Origin: Desulfuromonadales bacterium
GTDB taxonomy: Bacteria > Desulfobacterota > Desulfuromonadia > Desulfuromonadales > Geopsychrobacteraceae
Reading direction: 5' to 3'
Assembly: GCA_019429255.1 (NCBI GenBank)
Contig: JAHYIY010000004.1
Coordinates: 1-64,000, forward strand
DNA: 64,000 nt
A program made the translations under genes and the position numbers. Below are positions 2,826 through 58,577 of this stretch, piece after piece (position 1 is the stretch's first letter; each line of letters opens with the position of its first letter). The notes beneath the pieces were generated by a model. That model did no database searches. It was not told the DNA's origin and saw only the letters and a list, made by a program, of their open reading frames with translations.

Positions 2826-2855
2826 AGAAGCAAATTCACAAATACCTATGCAATG

Positions 2856-2884
2856 AAAAACACGCCATGAGGCGTGTTTTTTTT
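2856..2884 (+). terminator. Rho-independent terminator after kbl
   Basis: An A-run, then CACGCC, loop ATGA, GGCGTG and a run of eight T. The stem is near perfect and A/T flanks on both sides would let it work in both directions. It sits 31 bases after the kbl stop. Confidence 0.9.
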
Positions 2885-4085: not shown

Positions 4086-4087
4086 CG

Positions 4088-5218: not shown

Positions 5219-5744
5219 GGTGGTGTTCCTGAGAATCCCTGGTTGTGGATTGCAGTAGTTCAAGCTGTTGACTGCACTGAAGCAGTCGATCGGCAAGGAC
5301 GCGGTTTAAACCAAACAGGATCTTTGCTGTTGGTGCCGGATGGCGCAGGGTTGCTTCGAGAATATCGGAACGGAACAGCCCTACCAGAGATGTTGCCGTG
5401 GTCGCCCGAGCCGCTGCGGTACGGGGACGGTTACCGGTAAGGGCGACCTCGCCAAAAAAGTCGCCGGGTTCGAGGATCGCCTGTTCATGCTCTTTGCCCT
5501 CGCTGTCAACCGTGAATATCTGTACCTGACCGGAGCGGATGACGTACATTCCCGAGCCGATATCACCCGTCGAAAAGATCATCTCATCGGCGACATAGTT
5601 ACGCAGATGAACAATCTTTTCAAGTAATGCCAGTTCGCGCCGGCCGAGTTTGGCGAACATCGGAATCTGACTTAAGAAATAGGCCAGGGTCTGCTTACCG
5701 GCCTGATTGCGGAAGATATTTTGCCAGAGAGGGTTTGGATTCAT
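5211..5744 (-). CDS. Cyclic nucleotide-binding domain protein
   Basis: About 177 residues holding one cNMP-binding beta-roll: FSTGDIGSGMYVIRSGQVQI, then the PGDFFGEVALTGNRPRTAAA phosphate-binding cassette with its conserved Gly-Glu and Arg. There is no helix-turn-helix after the beta-roll, so it is not a complete CRP-type activator; it may regulate a partner protein, perhaps the membrane protein encoded by the overlapping downstream gene. ATG codons at 5744, 5774 and 5825 are in frame; I prefer 5744 because homology-like sequence begins just after it, but no strong ribosome site decides. Confidence 0.75.
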   Translation of the reverse strand: MNPNPLWQNIFRNQAGKQTLAYFLSQIPMFAKLGRRELALLEKIVHLRNYVADEMIFSTGDIGSGMYVIRSGQVQIFTVDSEGKEHEQAILEPGDFFGEVALTGNRPRTAAARATTATSLVGLFRSDILEATLRHPAPTAKILFGLNRVLADRLLQCSQQLELLQSTTRDSQEHHHE

Positions 5745-5977
5745 GGGTCGTCCCGGAGTATAATGTGTCCCCATGAAGGCGGATAATAACTGCTGATACA
5801 ACGGCATAGCATAATATGCCAGCAAGCTGCGCCAGTGCCAGAGAAATTGAGCTTTTAGCTGGTTTGAAACGGTTGTCGCGGCAACGCCGGCCTGGGGACA
5901 AACAGCGAAAAGCCGCAGCCCCTTTTCGTCTGGCGAAAAGAGGCTGTGGCCGGCATAGATCTAAAGGCGATGAGAAT

Positions 5978-6148
5978 TCAGTTGTTCTCTTCCAGCAAGG
6001 CTTCAATGTCAGGAACGCAGCCACCACAGCCGGTGCCGGCGCTGGTGGCATCCTGAACTTCCTCAACGCTGGTGAGGTTTTGTTCCTTGATGGCCTTGAC
6101 AATGGTGTCACGATCGACGTTCATACAGTGGCAAATGGTTTCAGACAT
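5978..6148 (-). CDS. Small BFD-like [2Fe-2S] ferredoxin domain protein
   Basis: A 56-residue protein consisting only of a bacterioferritin-associated-ferredoxin-like fold. Cysteines C6 and C8 (ICHC) and C41 and C44 (GCGGC) match the family's CxC...CxxC iron-sulfur ligand pattern. AAGGAG lies just upstream of the ATG at 6148, which rules out the longer upstream reading. Such proteins act in iron mobilisation from bacterioferritin or as small electron carriers; the partner is not evident. It is transcribed alone, with the 233-bp gap downstream holding no gene I can support. Confidence 0.85.
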   Translation of the reverse strand: MSETICHCMNVDRDTIVKAIKEQNLTSVEEVQDATSAGTGCGGCVPDIEALLEENN

Positions 6149-6246
6149 AAGGGTCTCCTTTGGTGGATGGTTTGATTGATCGGGGTGATTATACTCCTTT
6201 GGGAGCAGACTTGCCAATTACCGTGAGCATTTATTACAAAAAAAAC

Positions 6247-6407
6247 GTAACGGTTGATCACCGGATCTTCGGATCCTATGTCAAGGGACGCGATTGTTTC
6301 TCGTTGGGTCATCCATGACCGCTTGTTGTCGCCGTCCATGGCGACAAACACCCTTGCCCCAGGAGCCAAAGGCCCTGCGCAAGGATAGTGCTGAATAGTT
6401 ACAAAAA
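6247..6407 (+). repeat. Dispersed intergenic repeat, copy 1 (long form)
   Basis: Core reads ACCGGATCTTCGGATCCTAT, TGTCAAGGGACGC, TCATCCATGACCGC, then the palindrome GTCGCCGTCCATGGCGAC, and ends GCTGAATAGTTACAAAA. Ends form imperfect inverted repeats (GTAAC...GTTAC with partial GATCACC/GTGCTGAATA pairing). It carries the extra segment CGATTGTTTCTCGTTGGG absent from copies 3 and 4. It lies between two minus-strand genes and ends seven bases from the stop of the split-barrel gene. Same family as 19568-19727, 58388-58548 and 62246-62406. Confidence 0.9.
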
Positions 6408-6414
6408 ACATCGT

Positions 6415-6813
6415 TTAGTTGCTGAACCGGCGTTCCTGTGCGCCAATCAAGGCAAGTGATTTGTCGACGTTGAAGCGAATCAGGTGCTTCGGGCCTTTCT
6501 CCTGGTCTTGTTCCGGTGTCAAGCTTGTACGGGTCATCTGCCGGGCCAGTTGCGGGTCGTCTATCTCGGCGACTTTGTGCAGATATAATCGGGTTCCCTG
6601 GTAACCACCACCGGACTCTATGAAGAGGTAGGTGGCGTGCGGGTTGGCGCAGATATTCTGATAGGTCAGCCGCTCCCGCATCAAAAATACTACTGAGCCG
6701 TCAACCATTACGGTGGGCCGGGCATAGATGGCGCTGGTGACATTGCCCTGTCTGTCGGCGGTTGATAAAATACCGATTCCCTGGGTGCTGGTGAAATAAT
6801 CGTTGAGGGTCAT
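6415..6813 (-). CDS. Pyridoxamine 5'-phosphate oxidase family protein (FMN split barrel)
   Basis: 132 residues with the flavin-binding split-barrel pattern: LSTADRQGNVTSAIYARP, VVFLMRERLTYQNICANPHA and YLFIE, followed by GTRLYLHKVAEI. Proteins of this size bind FMN or haem and usually act as small flavin reductases or general stress proteins rather than the true PdxH, which is longer. CCAGGAGCC precedes the ATG at 6813. Single gene on the minus strand, divergent from uvrC; a dispersed repeat begins immediately after its stop. Confidence 0.82.
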   Translation of the reverse strand: MTLNDYFTSTQGIGILSTADRQGNVTSAIYARPTVMVDGSVVFLMRERLTYQNICANPHATYLFIESGGGYQGTRLYLHKVAEIDDPQLARQMTRTSLTPEQDQEKGPKHLIRFNVDKSLALIGAQERRFSN

Positions 6814-6964
6814 GGTCGGCTCCTGGTTCTTTTATGGGTATTTATTTTTGTCCACGACAAAAACATAACACACTTAATACTATGAATTGTATAGCCTGGA
6901 TAGATATTTTTCAGTGACCTGTGGATGTCAACATCCCTTTTGCTGGCAAAAACCGAGTGAACAG

Positions 6965-8797
6965 ATGTTTGTCCCGGATTTAAAAAATTATCCTCAGTCT
7001 CCCGGCGTGTATCAGATGCTTGCTGCCGATGGGACGATTCTTTATATCGGTAAAGCGCGGCGTCTGCGTTCACGCCTGCGCTGCTACTTTTCGGCACAGG
7101 GAGACGGTCGTCAGCAGATCCCCTTGCTGATGAAAAAGGTCGAGCGCATCGAGGTGATCATCACCGACACGGAAAAAGAGGCCCTGCTGCTGGAAAACAC
7201 CCTGATCAAGCAACATCGGCCACGCTACAATATCGACTTGCGTGACGACAAAACCTACGTTTCGGTACGTATTGACCTGCGCGAGGAGTTTCCGATCATG
7301 CAGGTGGTGCGGCAGGTAAAAAATGACGGTGCCCACTATTTTGGCCCTTATTCGTCAGCGGCGGCGATCCGCGAAACCTTAAGACAGATTTACCGCATTT
7401 TCCCCTTGCGGCACGCTCCGATAGAGCGCTGCCGCCGGCGTGGGCGCCCCTGCCTCTTTTATCAGATCGGTCAATGCAGTGCTCCCTGTCACGGCAAGAT
7501 CAGCCGCGAAGACTATCGGTCCCTGGTCGACGGGGTCATTCAGTTGCTGGAGGGGCGGGAATCAGAGGTGATCGCATCGTTAAAGCTGCAGATGGATACC
7601 GCAGCTAAAGCGATGAAATACGAACAGGCAGGCCTGGTGCGCGATCAGATCCGCCTGATTCAGCAAAGTGTTGAAAAACAGAAAGTAAGCGACCATGGTG
7701 GCGGCGATCAGGATGTGATTGGTCTGCATCAGGATGGTGGCGAAGTCGAAGTCACCCTGCTCTTTGTGCGCAACGGCAAACTGATCGGTCGCCGTAGTTT
7801 TCTGCTTGAGTGGGTGCTGGACTTGCCCGAGTTATTGCACGGCTTTCTCCTCGATTTTTATGCCCGTGATGTGATTATCCCCGATCAACTGATTCTTCCC
7901 TTTCCCCTGGAAAGCGCTGCGCTGCTGGCTGAATGGTTGAGTGAACAACGTGGCAAAAAGGTACATCTGCTGGCGCCTGAGCGCGGTGAGAAGAAACGTC
8001 TGCGTGAGCTGGCGCAGCGCAACGCCGAGGAGTCCTATCGCCAGCGTGGTCAGCGCAAGCAAGCGCGGCAAAATCTGCTGGACGAACTGCGGGAACGGCT
8101 GCAGCTTCCGCGCTTTCCCCGGCGCATTGAATGTTTCGATATTTCCCATGTTCAGGGGGATTTGGCCGTTGGCAGTATGGTGGTGTTTATTGATGGCGAA
8201 CCCGTCAAGCAGGAGTATCGCCGTTACCGGATCAAAACGGTGATCGGGGCAGATGATTATGCCTCGTTGAGCGAGGTCCTGCAGCGCCGGCTTAAGCCTG
8301 GTGTCGAGGACGACTGCCTGCCGGATATGATTCTGATTGATGGGGGCAAGGGGCAGCTTGGTGTCCTGGTAGAGGTGATCGCCCGTCTTGGGTTGACTGG
8401 CCGGATCGGTACGGTGGGCATTGCCAAGAGCCGGGTGTTGGCGAATGTCAAAGGCAAAGTGGTAGAACGTTCCGAAGAACGGTTTTTTCTGCCCGGCCGA
8501 AAAAATCCGGTGACCTTTCGCCAAGGCTCTGCCGCGGCGTTTTTGCTGGAACGTCTGCGTGACGAAGCCCATCGTTTCGCTGTCAGCTTTCATCGTACCC
8601 TGCGCGGCAAGCAGGGGTTGCGCTCCAGTCTTGATCAGATTCCCGGCATCGGTCCGGCGCGCCGCAGGGCGTTGCTGAAACATTTCGGTAGCCTCAAGCG
8701 TTTGCGTGAGGCGGGAGCGGACGAGATTCAACAGGTTCCCGGCTTTTCTAACGCGCGGGCACAGCAACTTGTTGCGGCACTGAAAGACCAGCACTAG
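6965..8797 (+). CDS. uvrC: Excinuclease ABC subunit C
   Basis: The dual-incision nuclease of UvrABC nucleotide excision repair, 610 residues from the ATG at 6965. Order of parts: GIY-YIG nuclease (SPGVYQM and ILYIGKARRL, residues 12-34), a four-cysteine cluster (C156, C163, C171, C175, in the spacing now known to hold a 4Fe-4S cluster in UvrC), UVR motif binding UvrB (about 203-238), RNase-H-like nuclease domain (CFDISHVQG onward), and tandem helix-hairpin-helix (QIPGIGPARR, QQVPGF). Upstream in-frame ATG at 6887 would add 26 unrelated residues and is rejected. No ribosome site is strong. Confidence 0.95.
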   Translation: MFVPDLKNYPQSPGVYQMLAADGTILYIGKARRLRSRLRCYFSAQGDGRQQIPLLMKKVERIEVIITDTEKEALLLENTLIKQHRPRYNIDLRDDKTYVSVRIDLREEFPIMQVVRQVKNDGAHYFGPYSSAAAIRETLRQIYRIFPLRHAPIERCRRRGRPCLFYQIGQCSAPCHGKISREDYRSLVDGVIQLLEGRESEVIASLKLQMDTAAKAMKYEQAGLVRDQIRLIQQSVEKQKVSDHGGGDQDVIGLHQDGGEVEVTLLFVRNGKLIGRRSFLLEWVLDLPELLHGFLLDFYARDVIIPDQLILPFPLESAALLAEWLSEQRGKKVHLLAPERGEKKRLRELAQRNAEESYRQRGQRKQARQNLLDELRERLQLPRFPRRIECFDISHVQGDLAVGSMVVFIDGEPVKQEYRRYRIKTVIGADDYASLSEVLQRRLKPGVEDDCLPDMILIDGGKGQLGVLVEVIARLGLTGRIGTVGIAKSRVLANVKGKVVERSEERFFLPGRKNPVTFRQGSAAAFLLERLRDEAHRFAVSFHRTLRGKQGLRSSLDQIPGIGPARRRALLKHFGSLKRLREAGADEIQQVPGFSNARAQQLVAALKDQH

Positions 8798-8854
8798 AAA
8801 CACTTTTCCGGATATGCAGCGGTCACTTTTCGTCGTGACGGTGTCAACAACCAC

Positions 8855-8886
8855 AAAAAAACCCTCCACCTGGTCACGGTGGAGGG
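8855..8886 (-). terminator. Rho-independent terminator of the lipoprotein gene
   Basis: Nine-base perfect stem CCCTCCACC / GGTGGAGGG with a seven-base loop; read on the minus strand it is followed by seven T. It lies 33 bases after the stop of the lipoprotein gene. On the plus strand there is no T-run, so it is not a clear terminator for uvrC. Confidence 0.85.
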
Positions 8887-8918
8887 CTGATGATAGAGCC
8901 TGATGGTGGGTCTGCCGG

Positions 8919-9692
8919 CTATTCGACGCTGAGGACGGCGTTTTCAACAATCAGGTCGTAAACATAGCCGTGACCGAAATCTTTATCGGTGGTGAGCTTG
9001 CCTCTGGCGACAACAACATCACCGACTTTGAGCTGGTTATTGCTGGTCAGGGTGAGATCGTGGTTGCCTGCTGCGGGGCTGCCCGAGCCATCCTGCAGGT
9101 GAACCCAGTTAGTGCCCATGATCTGCGGGCTGAACTTCACCACTTTGCCACGCAGTTGAATCTCCTGACCGGACAAATCATTGCGGGCAGCGTAGATTTC
9201 TTCAATGTTGAGGCCGTTTTCCAGTTTGTCGAGGGGACTCACGACAATGGGAGCCGGTGCTGCACCACCCATGCCGGCGATAGGCGGATGTCCGGTCGGC
9301 ATTTCCCCTTGCGCCGGAGCGGCGCTTGAGGCGTTAACAGAGCTGGCATTAAGGATTGAATCGACAAAATAAACCACATCAAAAGTCCGGTCGAGGGTTT
9401 GGCTGTGGTAGTTGTGCATGGGCATGCCTTCAGGAATAACCACCAGATCACCAACGCCGACGGCGAATTGCGGTGTCGCGGCCCAGACCTGCTGGTTATC
9501 GGTTTCGACCAGCACATAGGTATAGCCAAGAGCATTCATCGTTTCAACGACACTACCGCTGATGTTGTTTGATACTGGTGGTGCCGGTGCCTGAGGTTGC
9601 GGGGTTGAACTTTGGCTGGAGGAATTTTGCTGGCAACCAACCAGCAGCACCAGGATGAAGAGCAGTGCGCTAAAGAGAATGCGATTTTTCAA
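8919..9692 (-). CDS. Putative lipoprotein with NrfJ/OB-like domains
   Basis: 257 residues. A lipobox (LLVGC, C20) after a hydrophobic signal segment predicts a lipid-anchored envelope protein, followed by a Ser/Gln/Pro-rich linker. Domain one (about 45-115) contains GSVVETMNALGYTYVLVET and QVWAATPQF, a pattern found in small periplasmic proteins near multihaem cytochromes in Geobacter and Shewanella (NrfJ-like). A second Ala/Pro-Gly linker leads to an OB-like domain (about 150-257, GQEIQLRGKVVKFSP, NWVHLQDGSGS). Function unknown; anion or metal binding is a guess. Stands alone with its own terminator. Confidence 0.75.
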   Translation of the reverse strand: MKNRILFSALLFILVLLVGCQQNSSSQSSTPQPQAPAPPVSNNISGSVVETMNALGYTYVLVETDNQQVWAATPQFAVGVGDLVVIPEGMPMHNYHSQTLDRTFDVVYFVDSILNASSVNASSAAPAQGEMPTGHPPIAGMGGAAPAPIVVSPLDKLENGLNIEEIYAARNDLSGQEIQLRGKVVKFSPQIMGTNWVHLQDGSGSPAAGNHDLTLTSNNQLKVGDVVVARGKLTTDKDFGHGYVYDLIVENAVLSVE

Positions 9693-9804
9693 GGGAACCT
9701 CCGAAACTTGTGTTCACGACGTTAGTGGTCAATGGTGCTAAAACCTCGGCACGATAGCACAGGTTTTCAATGGGCAACAATAGGTGAGTTCGCTTTGGCG
9801 TATT

Positions 9805-11307
9805 TTATGTGCGGATGCACAGGTCGCGACCGTAGAGATGTGTTGCAGTGCGCAAACGCCCGCACAGGGATTCGTCCAGGGCGTTTTTGGCAAAGCGCCA
9901 GGACCAGTTGCCGTTAGCGGTGCCGGGGGTATTCATTCTGGTCTCTTCACCCAGACCAAGGATATCCTGCAAAGGGATGATAGCCAACCTGGCTACACTG
10001 GCCAGAGCGGTTTCAACCATTGCCCAGGGTATTTCCGGTGTGGGGCGCCCGAGATATTCTTTAACTCGGCTTTTGACCCGGTCGTCGAGTTGATTCCACC
10101 AACCGCGGGTGGTGGTGTTGTCATGGGTGCCGGTATAAACGACCGAATTGCGGCGATGGTTGTGGGGTAAGTAGGGGTTGTCAGCGCCTGAATCGAAAGC
10201 AAATTGTAAAATCTTCATGCCGGGGAAGGAAAAATCATCCCTGAGTTGTTCCACATCGGGGGTGATAATACCGAGGTCTTCGGCGATAATCGGTGGGTTG
10301 ATATAGCGCTCAGTCAGCAGATCGAACAGTTCGCGCCCGGAGGTGTCCATCCAGTGGCCGTTCACCGCTGTTTGGTCGTGAGCCGGAATGGCCCAGGAGG
10401 CCACAAATCCCCGAAAGTGATCGACCCGTAACAGATCAAACAGAGTAAAATTCCAGTCGAAACGCTGCAGCCACCACAGGTAGTTTTGCTCTTTGAGTTG
10501 ATCCCAGCGGTAGAGGGGGTTTCCCCAACGCTGACCGGTGGCACTGAAATAGTCTGGTGGAACGCCGGCAACCAGGGTCGACTGCTGGTGCTCATCAAGA
10601 TGGAACAGCGGGGCGTGGGCCCATACGTCGGCGGAATTTTCAGCGACGAAAATCGGCAGATCACCAAACATCAATATGCCACGCCGGCGGGCATACTCGC
10701 GCAGGGAAAACCACTGTTGGTAAAAAACAAACTGCAGGTACTGATGCCAGGAAATCTCGTCGGCCAGTTCTGATCGACACTGGGCAAGAGCTGCCGGGTC
10801 ACGCCGCCGAAGTGGTTCAGGCCACTCCTGCCAACCAAGAAACTGCTGCTCGGCACGGATCGCCTCAAACAGGCAGTAGTCATCAAGCCAGTGCGCCTGG
10901 GCACGGCAGAAGTCGGCAAAGCGTTGGTGGCGCTCTGCGTCCTGTTGTACGACGAAGTTGTGCCGGGCTTTGCGCAACAAAGGCATCTGGGAGATTAAGG
11001 CGGCACTGAAGTCACAATGAGGTGAGGCCGGAGTTGGAGGCGGCAGGTCGCCGGGCATTAAATCGCCGGTTTGGGCAAGATCGGCCAGGTTGATCAATAG
11101 GGGGTTGCCGGCAAAAGCGGAAAAGCAGCTGTAGGGGCAGTTGCCGTATCCGGTTGGATTGAGTGGCAGAATCTGCCAAACGGATTGACTGCTGGAAACC
11201 AGAAAATCGACAAAGTCACGTGCTTCCTGTCCTAAAGAACCGGTATGCTGGCCTCCCGGCAAGGATGTCGGGTGCAGCAGAATACCGCTGTGGCGCTGTT
11301 TCAACAT
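9805..11307 (-). CDS. malQ: 4-alpha-glucanotransferase (amylomaltase)
   Basis: A 500-residue GH77 enzyme that transfers alpha-1,4-glucan segments between maltodextrins, used in glycogen and maltodextrin turnover in the cytoplasm. The catalytic set is in place: nucleophile D296 (LLRVDHFRGF), acid/base E343 (AEDLG) and D396 (GTHDNTTT), matching the spacing of the Thermus enzyme. The N-terminal GILLHPTSLPGG and the GYGNCPYSCFSAFAGNP substrate loop are typical. Length is normal. No other glycogen genes are nearby; it is bounded by the lipoprotein and yedF genes on the same strand, 112 and 127 bp away. Confidence 0.96.
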   Translation of the reverse strand: MLKQRHSGILLHPTSLPGGQHTGSLGQEARDFVDFLVSSSQSVWQILPLNPTGYGNCPYSCFSAFAGNPLLINLADLAQTGDLMPGDLPPPTPASPHCDFSAALISQMPLLRKARHNFVVQQDAERHQRFADFCRAQAHWLDDYCLFEAIRAEQQFLGWQEWPEPLRRRDPAALAQCRSELADEISWHQYLQFVFYQQWFSLREYARRRGILMFGDLPIFVAENSADVWAHAPLFHLDEHQQSTLVAGVPPDYFSATGQRWGNPLYRWDQLKEQNYLWWLQRFDWNFTLFDLLRVDHFRGFVASWAIPAHDQTAVNGHWMDTSGRELFDLLTERYINPPIIAEDLGIITPDVEQLRDDFSFPGMKILQFAFDSGADNPYLPHNHRRNSVVYTGTHDNTTTRGWWNQLDDRVKSRVKEYLGRPTPEIPWAMVETALASVARLAIIPLQDILGLGEETRMNTPGTANGNWSWRFAKNALDESLCGRLRTATHLYGRDLCIRT

Positions 11308-11434
11308 GTCGGTTCCTGTCTGTGGCGAGCAAGTAAATAGAATGTTTTTAACCGGCTGTTTGCCGTAAAAACTGTCTACATCCTGTTTTTGCTGTTTGTA
11401 TTTCTCGGTGTCGGTGCGGATCAGTAATCAGCGA

Positions 11435-12028
11435 TCAGGGGGAAATAATGCGTCCGGCCCGATGTTGGATGTCGACGATATCGAGCATATTGGTAATGCG
11501 CCCGACCTTGAGCTGATCTTTCCGGTGGTAAAAATCGAGGCACAGGCCACAGCTGGCGATATCAACGCCCGCGGTTTTAAGTGCCACAAGGGTGTCGAGA
11601 ACCTCGGAACCTGCACAAACCAGATGAATACCACTGTTGACAAACAGAATAGCCGCCGGCAGTGGATCGATCTCTAACTGGATCATCAGGAAATTTTTCA
11701 GCAGCAGCCGACCAAAAGCATCGTCACCGGAGCCCATGCGATCGCTGCCACAGTAAATGACCGTCGCTCCTGCTGCCGTGGTTTGTGGGGCCGGAGCTGG
11801 TGCTTCGGCCGGCATTTCCAGCGGAGTCAGTGCGAGCCGATAGCCGTCAGCCGTTGCTGCCGCCGAGGTCTGATAACCCATTTTTTGGGCGAGACGGGTG
11901 ACATTGTCACGGCAGACGTCGTCATCAACCAGGACCATCAGTTTCCTGCCGGTATTGGCCAGAATCTGTTTGCGCGTTTCAACAACCGGGTAGGGGCAGG
12001 CATAACCCCGATAGTCAAGTTCTAACAT
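11435..12028 (-). CDS. yedF: Sulfurtransferase-like selenium metabolism protein YedF
   Basis: 197 residues in two parts: an N-terminal TusA/SirA domain with the CPYP sulfur-carrier motif (C11) and a C-terminal DsrE-like domain (about 88-197) with ASCGLCLDFY (C160, C163). This fusion is the family called YedF, often found in bacteria with selenium metabolism; its biochemical role is not settled. AGGAG (within AAGGCTCC read on the other strand) precedes the ATG. No selenium gene (selA, selB, selD) is visible in the window, and the key residues are ordinary cysteines, not selenocysteine. Confidence 0.88.
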   Translation of the reverse strand: MLELDYRGYACPYPVVETRKQILANTGRKLMVLVDDDVCRDNVTRLAQKMGYQTSAAATADGYRLALTPLEMPAEAPAPAPQTTAAGATVIYCGSDRMGSGDDAFGRLLLKNFLMIQLEIDPLPAAILFVNSGIHLVCAGSEVLDTLVALKTAGVDIASCGLCLDFYHRKDQLKVGRITNMLDIVDIQHRAGRIISP

Positions 12029-12099
12029 GTAAGGCTCCTGTAATGGTGCATCGTTTTAAACTGAAACGAACTCATCGTAAATCACAAACTACCATAGTT

Positions 12100-12250
12100 G
12101 ATGGCGTCGCAAAAAGCATCAGGTTGGATAGCTAGGCTCAAAGCACCAAATATAAGGCGCGCCATTTTGTTGAGTAATGAGGCGTGCGTACGTCGCAGCG
12201 GTGAGACGCTGGCGGCAACTCAGTTGTTGGTGAGTTTTTGCGCCGCCATC
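12100..12250. repeat. Intergenic element with 16-base inverted ends
   Basis: GATGGCGTCGCAAAAA at 12100-12115 faces TTTTTGCGCCGCCATC at 12235-12250, an inverted pair with one mismatch enclosing about 120 bp. The interior has no open reading frame of note. The GATGGCGTCGCAAAAA end resembles repeats I have seen between genes in Desulfuromonadales. It lies between yedF and rlmD, and the T-run of the left end (minus strand) could also aid termination. Confidence 0.6.
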
Positions 12251-12305
12251 ATCGTTTGCACGAAAACATCAGCGGATTTGCAACTTCATTGCTGCAACCA
12301 TCCGG

Positions 12306-13685
12306 TTAGGCACATATCAGCTGAACAAGGGTTTCAATGTGGGCGGTCTGGGGAAACATATCAACTGCCTGCAGACGTTTGATCCGGTAGCCGCCATCCA
12401 GCAGCTGTTTTAGATCAGCAGCCAGGGTGTCGGGATCACAGGAGATATAGATGATCTGCGCCGGGCGCAGTGCGATGAGGTGGCGGGTCAGCTCTTCACC
12501 GCACCCCTTGCGCGGCGGGTTGACGGTAACCAGGTCCGGGCTGCTGGCCAGCCGTTGCAGCTCCGCCAGCGCATCGCCGGCAACAAATCGACAGTTACCC
12601 AGGTTGTTAAGGGCGGCATTGGCCTTGGCGTTACGCACAGCTTCCGGGACAACCTCGATACCGGTCACGCTGCGTGCTCCTTTAGCCAGGCTCAGGGCAA
12701 TGCCGCCGATGCCGCAGAACAGGTCAACAACTGTTTCCTTGCCGGTCAACGCCGCCCAGTCGGTGATCAGGGCGTACATCCTTGCGGCCTGCCGCGTGTT
12801 GACCTGGAAAAAGGATTCAGGGGCAATATGCAGCCTGATGTCACCAATCTGTTCGATCAGGTCAGGATGGCCGAGGAGCTTGATGGATTCGGTGCCGAGG
12901 ATCACGTTGCCGCTGGAACTGTTGATGTTCTGGTGAACGCCAATCACCTCGGGCACCTTTTTGACCAGTTTTTTTGCAAGTTTCGGGAGGTCCTGATAAT
13001 CACGGTCATGGCAGACAAAGGTCACCAGGGCACGGCTATTGTCAGGGCTGACCCGGATCAGCAGATAGCGCAACAAGCCGCGTTGATGGCGCGGTTGATA
13101 GATAGAAACCTGCTGCCGCGCCACGTCATCGCGGACGATGGCGGCGATGCGGTTGATCAGTGGGTGGTGGACCGGGCACTCGGCAATATCGACGACATCA
13201 TGGCTGCCGCGGCGGTAGAGGCCAAGGAGCAGTTTTTCCCGCTTGCGCGCAAACACCAGTTTGGCGCTGGTGCGATAACCCAGGGTGTCGACAGCGGGAA
13301 GCACTGGCAGGGCAGAAAAGCTCTCAGCCGGAATCAGCGCAGCCAGTGCCTGTTCGACCCGCTGTTGTTTGAACTGCAGCTGCGCCTGATATTGCATACT
13401 GATCAGTGGGCAACCCAGACAGCTTAATTCGAGAGGACAGCCGGGTTGGGCGGTACGTAACGGCGAGCGTCGCAGTATTTTAAGCAGGCGGGTGAAAATA
13501 TGGGTGCGGCCGCGATGTTCAACCTCTGCCACGATCGTCTCAGAAGGAAATGCGCCCTGAACCAGGAGGGTGCGGGTTCCTTCCAGAACAGTGCCCACCC
13601 CTTCCTTATCCAATCCGGTCAGGGTTACCTTCAGGGTGCCAAGTTCCGGGTCTGTGATTTTTTTCTTTTCGGGGGCTTTTTTCAT
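12306..13685 (-). CDS. rlmD: 23S rRNA (uracil-C5)-methyltransferase, RlmD/RumA type
   Basis: Methylates a uridine of 23S rRNA (U1939 in E. coli) with S-adenosylmethionine. 459 residues from the ATG at 13685: N-terminal TRAM-like domain (TLTGLDKEGVGTV), four cysteines for a 4Fe-4S cluster (C83, C89, C92, C170), SAM-binding LFCGIGGIAL, TVNPPRKGC and catalytic cysteine C416 in YISCDPDTL. The frame extends to 13862 but those 59 residues are not family-like and overlap the ispG start. RlmC or TrmA-like specificity cannot be excluded from sequence. Divergent from ispG. Confidence 0.88.
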   Translation of the reverse strand: MKKAPEKKKITDPELGTLKVTLTGLDKEGVGTVLEGTRTLLVQGAFPSETIVAEVEHRGRTHIFTRLLKILRRSPLRTAQPGCPLELSCLGCPLISMQYQAQLQFKQQRVEQALAALIPAESFSALPVLPAVDTLGYRTSAKLVFARKREKLLLGLYRRGSHDVVDIAECPVHHPLINRIAAIVRDDVARQQVSIYQPRHQRGLLRYLLIRVSPDNSRALVTFVCHDRDYQDLPKLAKKLVKKVPEVIGVHQNINSSSGNVILGTESIKLLGHPDLIEQIGDIRLHIAPESFFQVNTRQAARMYALITDWAALTGKETVVDLFCGIGGIALSLAKGARSVTGIEVVPEAVRNAKANAALNNLGNCRFVAGDALAELQRLASSPDLVTVNPPRKGCGEELTRHLIALRPAQIIYISCDPDTLAADLKQLLDGGYRIKRLQAVDMFPQTAHIETLVQLICA

Positions 13686-13846
13686 GGTTTTATCTGGCCG
13701 TCGTTGCCTTGTTGAAGAAACACGAGAATGCAGGCTGCACACTACTTCTTGTGTGTGGTTGCTGTCAAACATTGTTGGTTGTCTGCCGTCTGCTGTTGGG
13801 GTAGACTGCGCAACGAACTTTTGTCTGTTAACTCCGGAGGTCCTTC

Positions 13847-14944
13847 GTGGCTCGCAAGACACGTCAAATCAAACTCGGTGGGCTCGCGGTTGGTGGTGAT
13901 GCGCCGATCAGTGTGCAGTCGATGTGCAATACTGATACCCGGGATGTGACTGCCACCCTGAACCAGATTGTGGCCCTCGAGCAGGCCGGCTGCGAGATAG
14001 TCCGTTGCGCGGTACCTGATCTCGATGCAGCACGGGCTTTGAAGCAGATTCGCCAGGGTTGCGGTATGCCACTGGTGGCTGATATCCATTTTGACTATCG
14101 CCTCGCCCTGGCGGCGATTGATGCCGGCATTGACGGTCTACGCATCAACCCCGGCAATATCGGTGAGCGCTGGAAGGTGGCCGAGGTGGTACGCGCCTGT
14201 CAGGAGCGGCAGATCCCGATCCGTATCGGCGTCAACGCCGGCTCACTGGAGAAGGAATTGTTGCACAAGCATGGCCACGCTACAGCTGCGGCCATGGTGG
14301 ACAGTGCTTTAGGGCACATTCGTCTGCTCGAAGAAGAGTCTTTTGAGCAAATCAAAATCAGCCTCAAGGCTTCTGATATTGCGCGAACCGTGGCGGCCTA
14401 CCGTTTGCTGGCGCAGCAGGTTGATTATCCGCTGCATGTCGGCATCACTGAAGCCGGGACGCTGTTCAGTGGTACCATCAAGAGCGCCATCGGGCTCGGG
14501 GTTTTGCTCAGTGAGGGGATCGGCGCTACCCTGCGGGTTTCCTTGACCGGCGATCCGGTGACGGAGGTCCGCGTCGGCTGGGAAATTCTCAAAAGCCTCG
14601 AACTGCGCCAACGCGGGCCGGTGTTCATCAGCTGCCCGACCTGTGGACGTTGCCGGATTGACTTGATTGCCATTGCCAACGAGGTTGAAGCGCGCCTGCA
14701 GGATCTTCCCCTGCCGTTAAAAATTGCTGTTATGGGGTGTGCCGTCAACGGTCCCGGTGAGGCACGCGAAGCTGATCTGGGAATTGCCGGTGGTAATAAC
14801 CAGGGGATTCTTTTTCGTCGCGGTGAACTGGTGTGCAAGGTGCCCCAATCTGACCTTGCCGATACCCTGGTGGCTGCCGCCTGGCAGGAGGTTGCCGAAC
14901 GGCAATCAGCCAAAAACAACCACCCCGGCTCCTGTAACGCTTAA
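13847..14944 (+). CDS. ispG: 4-hydroxy-3-methylbut-2-en-1-yl diphosphate synthase (MEP pathway)
   Basis: The penultimate enzyme of the MEP isoprenoid pathway, converting MEcPP to HMBPP with a 4Fe-4S cluster. 365 residues: TIM barrel opening with GDAPISVQSMCNTDT, LVADIHFDY (76-84), and the cluster ligands C263 and C266 (SCPTCGRC), C298 (MGCAVNGPGE) and E305. The start is GTG at 13847, fixed by GGAGG six bases upstream; no ATG fits. Short single-domain bacterial form without the plant/Chlamydia insert. Likely the first gene of a plus-strand run leading into proS. Confidence 0.96.
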   Translation: MARKTRQIKLGGLAVGGDAPISVQSMCNTDTRDVTATLNQIVALEQAGCEIVRCAVPDLDAARALKQIRQGCGMPLVADIHFDYRLALAAIDAGIDGLRINPGNIGERWKVAEVVRACQERQIPIRIGVNAGSLEKELLHKHGHATAAAMVDSALGHIRLLEEESFEQIKISLKASDIARTVAAYRLLAQQVDYPLHVGITEAGTLFSGTIKSAIGLGVLLSEGIGATLRVSLTGDPVTEVRVGWEILKSLELRQRGPVFISCPTCGRCRIDLIAIANEVEARLQDLPLPLKIAVMGCAVNGPGEAREADLGIAGGNNQGILFRRGELVCKVPQSDLADTLVAAAWQEVAERQSAKNNHPGSCNA

Positions 14945-15073
14945 GGTGCTTGCATTTATCCACTTCGTCAGGTTAGCTTTCCGGTTTATTTATTGTCGGG
15001 GTGTCAGCGGGGCAAGGACCCGCGCAATCAAACCGGTTTGGTAACAACTTTTATCTCATCAACAGGAAAAACC

Positions 15074-16825
15074 ATGCGCTATTCCCAGTATCTTCTGCCT
15101 ACGCTCAAAGAGGTTCCTGCCGATGCCGAGGTCATCAGTCACCAGCTGATGTTGCGTGCCGGCATGATTCGCAAGGTCGCTGCCGGTATCTACAATTATA
15201 TGCCTCTGGGGTTGCGCTCCATTCGCAAAATGGAGCAGATCATCCGCGAAGAGATGAATCGTGCCGGCGCCATCGAATGTCTGATGCCGATGGCCAATCC
15301 GGCGGAGTTGTGGCTGGAATCGGGACGTTGGGAAAAATATGGCAAGGAGCTGCTGCGCTTTAAAGACCGCAAGGGCGCGGATTTCTGCATGGGGCCAACC
15401 CACGAAGAAGTGGTGACCGATATCGTTCGCAATACGGTTCGCTCCTATCGCCAGCTGCCCCTTAACCTTTATCAGATTCAAACCAAGTTTCGCGATGAGA
15501 TCCGTCCACGTTTTGGTCTGATGCGTGGGCGCGAATTCATCATGAAGGATGCCTATTCTTTTGATCTCGATGATGCCGGTGCGGATCTGTCTTACCAGAA
15601 AATGTATCAGGCCTATCGCAATATCTTCCAGCGTTGTGGCCTGCGCTTCCGCGCGGTAGAGGCGGATAGCGGCGCCATCGGCGGCAGTTTTTCCCACGAA
15701 TTTATGGTTCTTGCCGAATCGGGGGAGGATGCCATCGTTTCCTGCAATTCCTGTGAGTACGCCGCCAATGTTGAAAAAGCCGAGGTGTTGTGGAGCGAGC
15801 AGGTGCCGTCCCCACCCGGGCAGGAATTGCAGCTGGTGGATACCCCGCAGCAGAAAACCATCAAGGAGGTTGCCGACTTTCTTGGTCTGCCTGCAGCCAG
15901 GCTGGTAAAAACCCTGATTCTGCAGACCTCGACGGAAGAAGTGGTGGCCGTTCTGCTGCGTGGTGATCGTGAACTGAACAGCATCAAGCTCGCCAATCTG
16001 CTGGATGTTGATTGGGTTTTACCCGCCGAGGAGGAGATTGTCCGCCGCGTGACCAGTGCTCCAGCCGGTTTTGCCGGCCCCATCGGCCTTGATGTTCGCC
16101 TGCTGGCAGACAACGAAGTACGCGCCATGAGTGATTACGTCGTAGGTGGTAATGTCGCCGATAAACATTATGTCGGTGTCAGTCATCCGCGTGATTTTGC
16201 CATCGATCAGTTTGCCGATCTGCGCCGCGCCGAACAGGGCGATCCCTGTCCGCGTTGCAGTGGCGGACGCTTTGAAAGTTGGCGGGGGATTGAGGTGGGG
16301 CACGTGTTCAAGCTCGGCACCAAATACTCTGAAACCATGGCTGCCACGGTGCTGGATGATCAAGGGCAACATCGGATGCTGGTGATGGGTTGTTATGGCA
16401 TCGGCGTTGGTCGGACGGTGGCGGCGGCAATTGAACAGAATCATGATGAGCACGGCTTGAAGCTGCCGCTACCGCTGGCCCCTTTTCAGGCGCTGGTGGT
16501 TATGCTCAACCCCAAGGATGAGCAGGTGCGCCAGGCCAGCGAGGAGATCTATGCGCAACTGCTGGACGTGGGGATTGAAGTGCTGCTCGACGATCGCGAT
16601 GAACGCCCGGGGATCAAGTTCAAGGATGCCGACCTGGTGGGCATTCCGTTGCGGGTGACGGTTGGCGCGCGCGGGTTGCAGGATGGGGTTGTTGAATTGA
16701 ACATCAGAACCAGCGGCGAACAAACTGTGGTGCCGCTGGGCGAGGTTGTCGCTGTTTTGGCCCGGCATATTGCTGCCGCCGCTGAGGTCCAGGGTGAACG
16801 TGCAGATGCCGGCAACAGGGCCTGA
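15074..16825 (+). CDS. proS: Prolyl-tRNA synthetase
   Basis: Class II synthetase, 583 residues from the ATG at 15074 (CAGGAAAAACC upstream; the longer frame from 14993 adds 27 unlikely residues). It is the bacterial type: an editing domain of the YbaK fold (about 225-400, clearing Ala-tRNA-Pro) is inserted between motif 2 (about 140-160, [20 protein letters not shown]) and motif 3 ([13 protein letters not shown]). The anticodon-binding domain follows ([13 protein letters not shown] to the end). Cytoplasmic. Six bases separate its stop from the DUF4388 gene, so they are likely cotranscribed. Confidence 0.96.
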
Positions 16826-16831
16826 AATGGT

Positions 16832-18061
16832 ATGACGGAGTTGCGTGTCGATAAGGGCGGGCTGCACGGTCTGCCGCCCGCCGTCTGTCAGCTGCTTGCC
16901 GATAAACCGCTGGAGCTGCTCTCGGCTTCTGCTGGTCATCTGTTGCTGGCAGACCCTCAGGCTGCTGCTCCAGTGCTGCTGGCCGGTGTCCTGGAAGAAG
17001 GGGCCATCCCGGATCTGCTGTCCTTTTTCAATATGTTCCGCAAGAGTGGAGTGCTCAATATTCTTCTCGATGGGGGGAGCAAATCCTTGTATTTCCAACA
17101 GGGCGAGGTGGTGTTTGCCACCAGTACCTTCGAGACAGAAGATATCGGCTCGGTGCTCTTTTCCCTCGGTAAGATTGAACGACAGGAGTTGGAGCAGTTG
17201 CGTCAGCAGGTGACTGAAGTCACGACCCTGGGAAAATTGCTGGTTGAACAGGCCTCCGTGACGCCCAAGGATCTGTGGTCAGCGGCGCGCAGCGAAGTGG
17301 AGAATATTGTCTATAATCTGTTCAGTGCCGCGCGTGGCGCTTTCTATTTTCAGGCCAAGGCGGTTGAACAGGAAGATATTGTGCGCCTGTCTATGAGTAC
17401 CCAGAATATGATTATGGAAGGACTGCGGCGACTCGATGAAAAAGCCCAGTTCATGCGGAAGATTATCTCCCTTGATTATTATCCTTGTGCTACCGGCAAA
17501 GAGGCTGGAAATTTGACGGAAACTGAAACACGGATGCTCAATCTCACCAGTTTCGGGCAACTCAAAGCGCGTGATCTGTTCAGAAAGTCGGCAGTGCGGG
17601 AGTTTGACGGTATCCGCACCCTCTACGATTTGCTCGAACGCGACCTGTTGCGGATGTATGAATCGTCCGGAACGGAAATCGAAGGGGTGCTGGGTCAGAT
17701 CCTCACCATTTACAATAATCTCTTTCGCGAAATTCATCTCCCGCTGAAACAGGTTAATCCAGGGTACCTTGAAGAGATTGCACTGGAATTACGCATCCTG
17801 CCGCAACCCTACACCTTTGTTTTGCGTGATGTGGTGTTTCGTGTCGACGGCACTCTGGATGGCCATTTTCTGGTGGCCAACTTGGACGGGCTCGAATTGC
17901 GCGACAAAACCAAATTGCTGGTGGATTCCCTGGCGGAAGTCGCCTATCTCAAAAGTATGACCATCAGGCAGCAGTTAAGTGCCGACCAGGCACGCCCCCT
18001 TATTTCACGTGTTCAGGAGAGTACAATTCAGGCTCGTGCTCTGGCCGGGAGAGATATATGA
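16832..18061 (+). CDS. DUF4388 (PATAN-like) domain protein
   Basis: 409 residues, no signal peptide or membrane helices. The region at about 50-190 (LLSFFNMFRKSGVLNILLDG, LYFQQGEVVFA, GSVLFSLG, GKLLVEQ) is the DUF4388/PATAN module common in Deltaproteobacteria, where it is linked to two-component and gliding or polarity regulation. The C-terminal half (about 215-409) is alpha-helical with no domain I recognise. No receiver or kinase domain is present. Its stop overlaps the pyrF start as ATGA, so it is translationally coupled to pyrF, though no functional link to pyrimidines is obvious. Confidence 0.75.
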   Translation: MTELRVDKGGLHGLPPAVCQLLADKPLELLSASAGHLLLADPQAAAPVLLAGVLEEGAIPDLLSFFNMFRKSGVLNILLDGGSKSLYFQQGEVVFATSTFETEDIGSVLFSLGKIERQELEQLRQQVTEVTTLGKLLVEQASVTPKDLWSAARSEVENIVYNLFSAARGAFYFQAKAVEQEDIVRLSMSTQNMIMEGLRRLDEKAQFMRKIISLDYYPCATGKEAGNLTETETRMLNLTSFGQLKARDLFRKSAVREFDGIRTLYDLLERDLLRMYESSGTEIEGVLGQILTIYNNLFREIHLPLKQVNPGYLEEIALELRILPQPYTFVLRDVVFRVDGTLDGHFLVANLDGLELRDKTKLLVDSLAEVAYLKSMTIRQQLSADQARPLISRVQESTIQARALAGRDI

Positions 18062-18789
18062 ACAAAAATGCCAAAGACCGTTTGATTTTTGCCCTGGATG
18101 TTGACGATTTTGACCAGGCGCGTTACTGGGTTCAAACCCTCAAGGACAACGTTGGTGTATTCAAGATCGGCAAACAGCTGTTTACCCGCTGTGGTCCTGA
18201 GGTGGTGAAGATGGTGGTTGACCAGGGCGCGGATGTGTTTCTTGATCTGAAATATCATGATATTCCCAACACCGTTGCCAAGGCGGCAATTGAGGCAACC
18301 CGGCTCGGTGTGCGGATTTTTAATGTCCACGCTTTGGGTGGTGCCCAAATGATGCGTACTGCCGTGACGGAAGTAGAGGCCTATTGTCGTCAGGTCGGCT
18401 GCCCGCGGCCGCAGATGCTTGCGGTGACGATTCTGACTTCATCAGATCAGGCGACGCTGACGGAAATTGGCATTGAACGACCGCTGGAGGACATGGTGGT
18501 GCGTCTGGCCCGACTGGCACAAGCAGCCGGTTGCGATGGCGTGGTGGCATCCCCTAAAGAAGCCGCCTTGATCCATGCCGCCTGCGGTGACGGCTTTGCC
18601 ATTGTGACTCCAGGAGTGCGCCCGGCGTTTGCCGCTCAGGATGATCAGAAACGCATCATGACCCCGGCGGACGCTATTGCCGCTGGTGCTACGGCACTGG
18701 TGATCGGTCGACCGATCTCTGCTGCCGCCGACCCGCTGGCAGCGGCAGGGCAGATTCTCGCAGAAATCAGTGCCGCGCTGGGGGGCTGA
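18058..18789 (+). CDS. pyrF: Orotidine 5'-phosphate decarboxylase
   Basis: Last step of de novo UMP synthesis (OMP to UMP plus CO2). 243 residues, TIM barrel. The DxKxxD catalytic array is seen as D63, K65 and D68 in FLDLKYHDIPNTV, with the substrate-binding FALDVDD near the N-terminus and the phosphate-binding GRPIS near the C-terminus. It is coupled on both sides: ATGA overlap with the DUF4388 gene and a one-base TGATG overlap with rlmB. Confidence 0.97.
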   Translation: MNKNAKDRLIFALDVDDFDQARYWVQTLKDNVGVFKIGKQLFTRCGPEVVKMVVDQGADVFLDLKYHDIPNTVAKAAIEATRLGVRIFNVHALGGAQMMRTAVTEVEAYCRQVGCPRPQMLAVTILTSSDQATLTEIGIERPLEDMVVRLARLAQAAGCDGVVASPKEAALIHAACGDGFAIVTPGVRPAFAAQDDQKRIMTPADAIAAGATALVIGRPISAAADPLAAAGQILAEISAALGG

Positions 18790-19535
18790 TGGCGGATTAT
18801 CTTTACGGCATCAATCCGGTCGCCGAGGCTCTTGCCGGTGCCGGTCGGCGACCACTGGAGCTGTTATTGGCCGCAAACCACCGCCAGCAGCGCCTGGAAT
18901 CGTTACGGCAGCAGGCAGCAACACAACAGGTTGCGGTGCGCCAGGTTGATCGCCATGATCTCTCTCGTCTGGTTGGCCATGATCGTCATCAGGGGGTTGT
19001 GCTCAAGCTCGAGCCGTTTTGCTACGTTTCTGTGGACGCGTTGATCGCGCGCGCCGGGCAGGCTGGAAATGACGCTTTTTTCCTGATCCTCGACGGCATT
19101 ACCGACCCGCACAATTTCGGCGCTCTGGTGCGCAGTGCTGAAGGAGCCGGATGTCATGGCGTAGTGGTTGCCAAGGATCGTGCCTGTCCGGTAACCCCGG
19201 TCGTTGAAAAAGCTGCAGCCGGTGCTTTGGCCCATCTACCCTTATGCCAGGTGACTAATTTGGCACGCACCCTGGAAAAGTTTAAACAAGCAGGGATCTG
19301 GTGTTATGGATTGGCCGGAGAAGCGCCGGCAAAAGACCTGTTTGCTACTTCCTTGAATGGACCGGTGGCTCTGGTTGTCGGTAGCGAGGGGAGCGGTTTG
19401 CGTCCCAACATCCGTAAGCATTGCGATGCCCTGTTGGCCATCCCCATGATCGGACATCTGAGTTCCCTTAATGCTTCGGTCGCAGCCGGGATTGCCTTGT
19501 TCGAGATCGTGCGCCAGAGGCGACAACATCACTGA
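18789..19535 (+). CDS. rlmB: TrmH/SpoU family RNA methyltransferase, RlmB-like
   Basis: 248 residues of the SPOUT class. N-terminal substrate-binding domain (YGINPVAEAL, 5-14) and the three SpoU motifs: LDGITDPHNFGALVRSAEG, VVGSEGSGLRP and MIGHLSSLNASVAAGIALFE. This layout matches RlmB, which makes Gm2251 in 23S rRNA, though tRNA-specific relatives are similar. The ATG shares its A with the pyrF stop. The transcript runs toward an inverted copy of the dispersed repeat 32 bp downstream. Confidence 0.9.
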   Translation: MADYLYGINPVAEALAGAGRRPLELLLAANHRQQRLESLRQQAATQQVAVRQVDRHDLSRLVGHDRHQGVVLKLEPFCYVSVDALIARAGQAGNDAFFLILDGITDPHNFGALVRSAEGAGCHGVVVAKDRACPVTPVVEKAAAGALAHLPLCQVTNLARTLEKFKQAGIWCYGLAGEAPAKDLFATSLNGPVALVVGSEGSGLRPNIRKHCDALLAIPMIGHLSSLNASVAAGIALFEIVRQRRQHH

Positions 19536-19567
19536 TCCGGTTGCAGCGAAAGTTTTGTTTCTTTATT

Positions 19568-19727
19568 GGTAATTATTCAGCTGCTGTCCTTCGCGCAGGG
19601 CCTTTGGATCCTGTGGCAAGGGTTTTTGTCGCCATGGACGGCGACAAAAAGCGGTCATGGATGACCCAACGGGAAACAATCGCGTCCCTTGACATAGGAT
19701 TCCCGACCCGGTGCTGAACAGATACAT
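19568..19727 (-). repeat. Dispersed intergenic repeat, copy 2 (long form, inverted)
   Basis: The reverse complement matches copy 1 along its length, including the long-form segment (GGGAAACAATCGCG here) and the GTCGCC-N6-GGCGAC palindrome. The left end GGTAATTATTCAGC and right end GTGCTGAACAGATAC pair imperfectly as terminal inverted repeats. The right end directly abuts the truncated hemerythrin pseudogene. Confidence 0.9.
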
Positions 19728-19730
19728 CTG

Positions 19731-19982
19731 TTGGAGCATTTTGACTACGAAGAAAGGCTGATGCAGGCATGACAGTTTCCTGATTATGCTGAGCATCAGC
19801 TGGAGTATCAAGACCTTGTTACTGCTGTACAATAACTAAAAACTGATTATGCTGATAGGGATGCAAGCGCCGTCGGCGAATTGCTGAATTTTTTGCGCAC
19901 CTGGCTACTCGAGCTTAGTGACAAGGTGGACAAAAAATATGGATCTTTTATTGAATCGCGCGGCGGGCGTTTTGTGGAGTAA
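19731..19982 (+). pseudogene. Bacteriohemerythrin pseudogene, 5' end lost, two in-frame stops
   Basis: One continuous frame from TTG at 19731 to TAA at 19980-19982 reads like the last two thirds of a bacterial hemerythrin: LEHFDYEERLM (HxxxE ligand helix), QFPDYAEHQLEYQDLVTAV, then GELLNFLRTWLLELSDKVDKKYGSF. In-frame stops occur at 19770 (TGA) and 19833 (TAA). Iron ligands are eroded: the second histidine of HxxxH is Tyr and the histidine before the last Asp is gone (ELSDKVD where families have NHILxxD). The N-terminal helix is missing and the dispersed repeat sits in its place. Clearly non-functional. Confidence 0.8.
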
Positions 19983-20035
19983 TGACTTCTGCTCGATCGA
20001 GTCGTTTGCTGGCGGTACTGACCCAAAGGACTGGT

Positions 20036-21430
20036 ATGTATATTTCGACATCACGATCCGTAGTTAAGGACTTACTCAACAGCTCTGCGGCGCAACAGCA
20101 GATCCGTGTCTGTGGCTGGGTCAGGTCGGTACGCCGAGGTAAGGATGTCGCTTTTATTGCCCTGAATGATGGCAGTTGTCAGGGCTCGTTGCAGGTTGTC
20201 GTTGCTGCAAGCTTGCTGCAGGCGCCGGCAATGGCTGCTCTGGGAACCGGCGCCTGCATCGTGGCGCAGGGCGATCTGGTGGCCTCTCCCGCAGCCGGCC
20301 AGTCATGGGAAATGCAGGCCGATCAGCTTGAGCTGTTAGGCGGGGTCGATGCCGCTTATCCGTTACAGAAAAAACGCCACAGCTTTGAATATCTGCGCAG
20401 CATCGCCCATCTGCGCCCGCGGGCCAACACTTTTGGTGCTGTGTTCCGTATGCGTAGTGCCCTGGCGTTTGCTGTGCACCAGTTTTTTCAGGAGCGGGGT
20501 TTTTTGTATGTCCATACCCCGATCATCACCACCAATGACTGTGAGGGTGCGGGCGAGATGTTTCGGGTGACCACCCTTGACGCTATACAGCCCCCCATGA
20601 ATAGTGGTCAGGTTGATTGGGCGCAGGATTTCTTCGGTGATAAGGCGGGTTTGACCGTCAGTGGTCAGCTGCAGGGTGAGTTGTTCGCCATGGCTTTTGC
20701 CGATATCTACACCTTCGGCCCGACCTTCCGGGCGGAAAATTCCCATACCAGCCGTCATGCCAGTGAATTCTGGATGATCGAACCGGAGATGGCTTTTGCT
20801 GATCTGGCGCGGAACTGTGAGGTGGCGGAAGAATTTTTCCGCTATCTGGTAACCTGGAGTCTGGAGCGTTGTGGTGATGACCTGGCATTTTTTAACCAGC
20901 GCATTGCACCGGGGCTGATTGATCGCCTCGAACAGCTCGCCCGCGCACAGTTTCACCGGGTGACTTACAGCGAGGCGATCAAACTGCTGCAACAGTCAGG
21001 ACGAGCGTTTGAGTTCCCCGTCGCCTGGGGGCTGGATCTGCAGTCGGAGCACGAGCGCTATCTGACCGAAGATGTGTTCGCCGGGCCGGTTTTTGTCATC
21101 GACTATCCGCAACAGATCAAGGCGTTTTACATGCGCCGCAATGATGATAACAAAACCGTTGCCGCCATGGATCTGCTGGTGCCGCGGGTCGGTGAAATTA
21201 TCGGTGGCAGCCAGCGCGAAGAGCGCCTGGAGGTGCTGGAGCAGCGCATGATCGCGCACGGAATCGACCCCGCCAGCCTGGACTGGTATCTGGATACCCG
21301 GCGCTGGGGAAGTTGTCCCCATGCCGGTTTCGGCCTCGGCTTTGAACGTCTGCTCATGTATCTGACCGGTATGGAAAATATTCGTGACGTTATTCCCTTC
21401 CCCCGCACTCCAGGCAGTGCGCGTTTTTAG
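20036..21430 (+). CDS. asnS: Asparaginyl-tRNA synthetase
   Basis: Class IIb synthetase charging tRNA-Asn, 464 residues from the ATG at 20036. AAAGGA sits just upstream; the frame's earlier start at 19982 lies against the pseudogene and is rejected. N-terminal OB anticodon-binding domain (IRVCGWVRSVRRGKDVAFIA), catalytic motif 2 (FRAENSHTSRHASEFWMIEPE begins FRAE) and motif 3 (GFGLGFERLLMYLTG). The FRAENSHT sequence and GMENIRDVIPFPRTPG end are AsnRS rather than AspRS traits. Its presence suggests direct Asn-tRNA charging in this organism. Confidence 0.96.
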   Translation: MYISTSRSVVKDLLNSSAAQQQIRVCGWVRSVRRGKDVAFIALNDGSCQGSLQVVVAASLLQAPAMAALGTGACIVAQGDLVASPAAGQSWEMQADQLELLGGVDAAYPLQKKRHSFEYLRSIAHLRPRANTFGAVFRMRSALAFAVHQFFQERGFLYVHTPIITTNDCEGAGEMFRVTTLDAIQPPMNSGQVDWAQDFFGDKAGLTVSGQLQGELFAMAFADIYTFGPTFRAENSHTSRHASEFWMIEPEMAFADLARNCEVAEEFFRYLVTWSLERCGDDLAFFNQRIAPGLIDRLEQLARAQFHRVTYSEAIKLLQQSGRAFEFPVAWGLDLQSEHERYLTEDVFAGPVFVIDYPQQIKAFYMRRNDDNKTVAAMDLLVPRVGEIIGGSQREERLEVLEQRMIAHGIDPASLDWYLDTRRWGSCPHAGFGLGFERLLMYLTGMENIRDVIPFPRTPGSARF

Positions 21431-50822: not shown

Positions 50823-50899
<77 letters not shown>

Positions 50900-58548: not shown

Positions 58549-58577
58549 TACACCAAGCAAAAGCAAGGAGACGAGAT

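Follow-up and report, generated by a model that had tools for sequence, protein, structure and literature searches.

The locus and the split gene

The window, i.e., the whole stretch of 64,000 nucleotides that was analyzed, corresponds to positions 1-64,000 of contig C40 (127,345 nt), in a genome of 2.74 Mb in 61 contigs (G000). The region considered here contains a gene that we take to be rlmB, a short dispersed element, a fragment of a bacteriohemerythrin gene, and asnS (Table 1). Elsewhere in the window, a tandem pair of tRNA-Met genes lies at 50823-51013.

Table 1. Features between rlmB and asnS, in positions of the window
Feature	Position	Strand	Remarks
rlmB (23S rRNA methyltransferase family)	18789..19535	+	gene name presumed from resemblance
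CTTTATTG	19561..19568	+	target-site copy to the left of the element inserted after rlmB (copy R)
MITE-like dispersed element, 157 nt	19569..19725	+	imperfect terminal inverted repeats GTAATTATTCAGC / GTATCTGTTCAGC
Stretch shared with contig C19	19588..19714	+	127 nt identical to C19:1-127 (reverse complement), end of contig C19
ATCTGTTG	19726..19733	+	target-site copy to the right of the element inserted into the hemerythrin gene (copy H)
Bacteriohemerythrin pseudogene, 3' part	19726..19982	+	TGA 19770-19772, TAA 19833-19835, original stop TAA 19980-19982
asnS open frame	19982..21430	+	true start probably downstream of 19982

The fragment in the window is the 3' 60% of the bacteriohemerythrin gene, with two in-frame stops, and it directly abuts the element. 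A hemerythrin pseudogene broken exactly at a repeat had been described in the sequence-only reading and is borne out, as are the in-frame TGA at 19770 and TAA at 19833 when the frame is read. The dispersed repeat is also real, but it ends at 19725, 2 nt before the end of about 19727 given earlier. The fragment matches the NCBIfam bacteriohemerythrin profile NF033749 at positions 56-128 of 129 (E=3.9e-16), with a score of 59.4 bits, below the cut-off of 84, for this partial frame with X at the stops. Matches to TIGR02481 (E=1.9e-13, 50.6 bits, cut-off 51.75) and Pfam PF01814 (E=1.7e-4, 22.5 bits, cut-off 25.3) were likewise found, as were matches to solved bacteriohemerythrin structures (PDB 4xpx and relatives), with a best E of 3.3e-7. 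The intact orthologue of the sister genome G001 matches PF01814 over residues 13-128, above the Pfam cut-off.

The 5' half of the gene is found on another contig, C19 (positions 147-311), after a sensor kinase gene. It aligns with the N-terminal portion of the sister protein, has lost its start codon and has TAG and TAA in frame. A copy of the element adjoins this half and runs off the contig end. When the intact G001 protein was searched against this genome (genus search), the two pieces were the sole matches at E<=1e-6. The same 8 bp, ATCTGTTG, stands before the element on C19 and after the element in the window, which constitutes an 8-bp target duplication. Joined over one ATCTGTTG, the two halves give a gene-length frame that is as long as the G001 gene and shows no indel against it; as compared, they end one base before the final stop, and the window reading supplies this last base. 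A MITE-like element has thus inserted in the usual way, leaving a target-site duplication of 8 bp.

Compared with known bacteriohemerythrins, the gene differs in its lost start codon, four in-frame stops, two replaced conserved His residues and its interruption by a mobile element. In the HxxxH motif the second His has become Tyr, and the His of the last helix has become Leu, while both residues are present in the proteins of the two sister genomes G003 and G001. We take these positions to be iron ligands, and on this assignment the earlier statement that ligand positions are mutated agrees with our comparison.

In the sequence-only reading, the gene was inactivated and lost its N-terminus through either an insertion or a repeat-mediated deletion, with decay afterwards. 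That the gene is broken exactly at the element and that two sisters have it intact speak for such an account, and the insertion that cuts the gene stands. A deletion of the N-terminus is ruled out, as C19 carries the N-terminal part together with the matching 8-bp duplication. The element also carries few changes of its own for the divergence of the gene (see below), and we regard the earlier account as a whole as improbable.

The sensor kinase on C19 has an open frame and shares 67% identity with the G003 kinase. At its far end, contig C19 (L193, C19:6001-10263) carries a CRISPR-like array with the repeat GTTTCAATCCACGCCCCCGCGCGGGGGGCGAC, near what we take to be upp-like and uracil-permease-like genes, and the corresponding region in G003 (L141) holds frames that we presume to be cas1/cas4-like.

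The asnS neighborhood in relatives

asnS was searched in 41 genomes including this one, of which 38 gave a match at E<=1e-50, and 29 loci of relatives (L032-L060) were returned and compared, each with about 1.5 kb of flank. The sisters G003 (L141) and G001 (L142) have an intact hemerythrin gene of 138-140 codons immediately 5' of asnS, with prfC and then a PAS/HAMP sensor histidine kinase gene (domains read in the G003 kinase) in front of it, and neither has the element inside the hemerythrin gene. Intact hemerythrin without the repeat in sister genomes, which had been proposed as a check on the pseudogene, was hence observed. In the third sister, G002, which is 84% complete, no asnS match was obtained. 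A hemerythrin match beside asnS was present in 10 of the 29 loci, with an open frame in 8 of them, and no hemerythrin match was found within the flanks of about 1.5 kb in the remaining 19, G007 included. Based on this comparison of asnS loci, kinase, hemerythrin, asnS is the gene order in the genus.

In two other genomes of the family, G017 (L036) and G013 (L044), the hemerythrin gene beside asnS seems broken (frame lost) or internally deleted, so a repeated loss of the gene is possible. Two element copies occur outside the hemerythrin gene in the G003 locus L141, of which the copy at 7525-7634 (80% identical) lies between prfC and the kinase gene, near the gene that is split in G000.

The interval between rlmB and asnS, which the sequence-only reading proposed to compare in sister genomes, is not ancestral: the two genes lie on different contigs in G001 and G003, the two sisters in which both were found, and are about 78-233 kb apart in G007, G027 and G012. 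In the sisters, the gene after rlmB is not hemerythrin: G003 has tRNA genes there, and G001 and G002 have a TetR-like gene. In G003, CTTTATTG follows rlmB without an element, then come TTGACATC and tRNA-Thr; the full order is a spacer, tRNA-Thr, Tyr, Gly and Thr, and then tuf.

A family of short elements with 8-bp target duplications

The element is dispersed in the genome, with at least 40 long matches scored of 177 first-look candidates, numbers that suggest a probably large family. Three further copies lie in the window at 6238-6416, 58387-58554 and 62245-62413 and are absent from the 40 scored matches. The usual left end is GTAACTATTCAGC, and the consensus ends (GTAACTATTCAGC left, GCTGAACAGATAC right) are complementary at 11 of 13 positions, i.e., they form the terminal inverted repeats expected of a MITE.

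Target duplications were counted in 51 copies from a subset of loci, 37 from this genome and 14 from G002 and G003, after removal of alignments <100 nt and duplicates and then of 5 of the remaining 56 copies for short flanks or poor ends. The 8-bp flanks were identical in 21 of the 51 copies, compared to about 0.5 in shuffled pairs, with a mean of 6.33 matches vs 2.93, and the other flank lengths (4-7 and 9-11) gave only 0 to 4 exact pairs among the same copies. In this genome alone, the flanks were exact in 20 of 37 copies and had >=6 matches in 30 of 37. Target duplications of fixed length are therefore found across the family.

The element resembles MITEs in its length of about 155 nt, which is too short for a transposase, its imperfect terminal inverted repeats, its many copies and its fixed-length target duplication. 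In the 1.08 Mb scanned (overlapping loci included), no clear autonomous partner with these ends was found. Two wide pairs of ends, 751 nt (L016) and 756 nt (L026), were considered as an autonomous element and read instead as neighboring short copies, because L016 holds two copies and L026 lies about 0.5 kb from a copy at C37:39000; four pairs were further apart. The element is not a known RNA family at Rfam gathering scores, and the plasmid collection searched gave no match to it.

IS66-family insertion sequences also make 8-bp direct repeats and have ends that begin GTAA, according to two reports (PMC11946415 for both features, PMC12888890 for the ends), and the element shares the 8-bp duplications and the GTAA start. 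The IS66 ends are, however, given as GTAAGCG, with one GTAACCG end also printed in PMC12888890, while the left ends of the element are mostly GTAACTA and its right ends, when reversed, mostly GTATCTG. An IS66 transposase (PF03050) gave no match in this genome or in G002 and one match each in G001 and G003. Because the ends are not GTAAGCG and this genome has no IS66 transposase match, we keep the element out of the IS66 family. A transposase acting in trans would most likely move the short element by its ends, and repair of staggered cuts would produce the 8-bp duplications.

A stretch of 1.66 kb that ends with an element copy is 98% identical between this genome (L022, C61:57692) and G003 (L157, C16:7483), where the protein identity of three genes (prfC, kinase, asnS) is 67-97%. 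Beyond the element the two genomes gave no long match, and the stretch matched no Rfam family at gathering scores. It may represent a recent transfer bounded by the element.

The order of decay and insertion

Sites at which the pseudogene alone differs from G003 and G001 number 44 of 414 (10.6%) and are distributed as 12/16/16 over the three codon positions. The corresponding counts are 4/7/12 for changes specific to G003 and 8/7/36 for those specific to G001 (together 12/14/48). The pseudogene differs significantly from both other branches together (Fisher p=0.004), and the comparison with G003 alone is not significant (p=0.30). Judged by these counts, the substitution pattern of the pseudogene is that of unconstrained sequence. 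In the prfC, asnS and kinase genes of this genome, the third-position excess is much as in G003.

Between the element copies on C19 and in the window, 2 of 146 sites differ, but 127 of these sites belong to the common k-mer, so the two copies may not be independent there. The next closest copy differs from the C19 copy at 9 of 146 sites. The C19 copy departs from the consensus of 40 copies of this genome at 13 of 144 sites, towards the top of the range of 3.2-12.6% seen in these copies. Only 1 of the 146 readable letters of the C19 copy is seen in none of the 38 other aligned copies of this genome nor in the window copy; since the letters recur in other copies, the differences are mostly those of a subfamily. 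Setting the divergence of the gene since the loss of constraint at roughly 8%, which is a rough estimate, about 12 private changes would be expected in the element if the divergence had accumulated after insertion. The Poisson probability of observing two or fewer is then 0.0005, and 0.06 if 6 are expected.

The flat codon pattern, the few private changes in the element and the intact 8-bp duplication suggest that the gene was probably dead before the element inserted. The order of insertion and then decay, as assumed in the sequence-only reading, is thus probably reversed: the gene has diverged by about 10%, against few changes private to the element. Gene conversion among the copies could hide their age and is the main escape from the reading that decay preceded insertion.

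The junction between rlmB and the pseudogene

As assembled, the window copy has CTTTATTG on its left and ATCTGTTG on its right, which agree at 5 of 8 positions, a level that unpaired flanks reach in 14% of cases. Because CTTTATTG occurs without an element after rlmB in G003, the window combines the left side of one insertion with the right side of another. The first 127 nt of C19 (C19:1-127) are the same as window positions 19588-19714, and the next base (C19:128 vs 19587) differs. An exact 127-mer in common with another contig was found at 6 of 12 contig ends tested, all six within the element: C19 shares it with the window, C35 and C55 share it with each other, and C44, C8 and C43 each share it with the C22 copy. 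No common 127-mer occurs at the remaining six ends (C13, C18, C46, both ends of C40 and the far end of C19). De Bruijn assembly with k=127 leaves such 127-nt overlaps at repeats.

Comparison with relatives points in the same direction. Gene by gene, positions 1-19535 of the window follow G003 contig C43 and positions 19955-127345 of C40 follow G003 contig C33, and the switch falls at the element. In G007, which is a single contig, about 85 kb of one strand carries prfC, asnS, rlmB and nusG in that order. Between asnS and rlmB, G007 has many of the C40 genes up to 71.6 kb and then the genes of the left part of the window, and the C40 genes beyond 71.6 kb have no match in the G007 stretch read. 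asnS lies upstream of nusG on the same strand at 81 kb in G007, 237 kb in G012, 126 kb in G027 and 210 kb in G036, with G037, where the two genes are on opposite strands, as the exception. As the conserved gene order has rlmB downstream of asnS, we consider an assembly error inside the element the most likely origin of the rlmB-element-hemerythrin join.

The other half of the rlmB insertion was searched for in this genome. Its right half, sought by the expected end, gave 7 matches with <=3 mismatches, none of them with CTTTATTG. The tRNA-Thr/Tyr/Gly/Thr cluster gave four matches, all to the tRNA-Gly part, in a genome rated 99.93% complete. A search for the TetR neighbor of rlmB returned just one 45%-identical and one partial match, and contig C18 starts inside tuf. 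That neither the other half of the rlmB insertion nor most of the tRNA cluster was found counts against an assembly error.

Two further observations argue against an assembly error. The assembler joined rlmB, and not C19, to the 3' half of the hemerythrin gene; provided that it used paired reads, this choice speaks weakly for a real join. Further, the C22 copy (L009), whose 127-mers occur at three other contig ends, was resolved, with flanks that agree at 7 of 8 positions. If the junction is real, unequal recombination between element copies might have produced a tandem duplication of the segment from asnS to rlmB, or a circle. Given the gene order in G007, G012, G027 and G036, the two insertions would be direct repeats on one replichore, and a crossover between a downstream rlmB copy and an upstream hemerythrin copy would yield exactly the junction seen, so that it fits a tandem duplication or an excised circle but not an inversion. 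The 127 identical nt common to both copies and the positive GC skew on both sides (0.081 and 0.072) are consistent with this. However, it requires an extra event, while a simple insertion with an assembly error needs none in the organism, and the junction crosses the very 127-mer at which C19, with the missing gene half, ends. Large tandem duplications are also usually unstable. The opposite strands in G037 count against it as well, and because of them the ancestral orientation is likely rather than certain. We therefore consider a real junction of this kind unlikely. It would mean that the element family drives rearrangement, here a duplication or circle of >100 kb with essential genes, in a lineage where hemerythrin is lost and the kinase is intact, which we hold to be equally doubtful.

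An inversion or translocation between element copies would have left a reciprocal junction of sensor kinase, 5' half, element and tRNA cluster. Its partners both stop at contig ends (C19 and C18), so the assembly leaves room for such a junction. The same-strand order in four of the five informative relatives argues against an inversion between the copies, and the equal GC skew on both sides argues against a recent inversion within one replichore, while being compatible with one across replichores. An inversion or translocation is accordingly very unlikely. GC skew does not discriminate between the main readings.

Taken together, the most likely history is one in which point mutations first inactivated the bacteriohemerythrin gene located between the sensor histidine kinase gene and asnS, and the 157-nt element then inserted at ATCTGTTG (codons 54-56), duplicated 8 bp and split the dead gene. 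A nearly identical copy would have inserted separately at CTTTATTG just downstream of rlmB, and the left flank of this copy would then have been joined in the window, via the common 127-nt stretch, to the right flank of the hemerythrin copy. The true orders would run from the sensor kinase through the hemerythrin 5' half (C19), the element and the hemerythrin 3' half to asnS in one place, and from rlmB through the element and the tRNA cluster to tuf in another. We have good confidence in this explanation as a whole, i.e., a dead gene, two insertions and, most likely, a join made by k=127 short-read assembly.

Implications

A literature search found no report on this element or this hemerythrin pseudogene. 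What was a vague repeat beside a broken gene can now be read as an insertion whose target duplication is present and whose empty site is preserved in two sisters, and the case brought out the 8-bp duplication signature of the whole element family. Contig joins through this family can be chimeric, and claims of synteny or deletion that rest on such joins therefore need care here. The most likely reading is an ordinary MITE-like insertion into a dead gene, together with a contig chimera, and the neighboring kinase keeps its open frame though the hemerythrin partner gene is lost.
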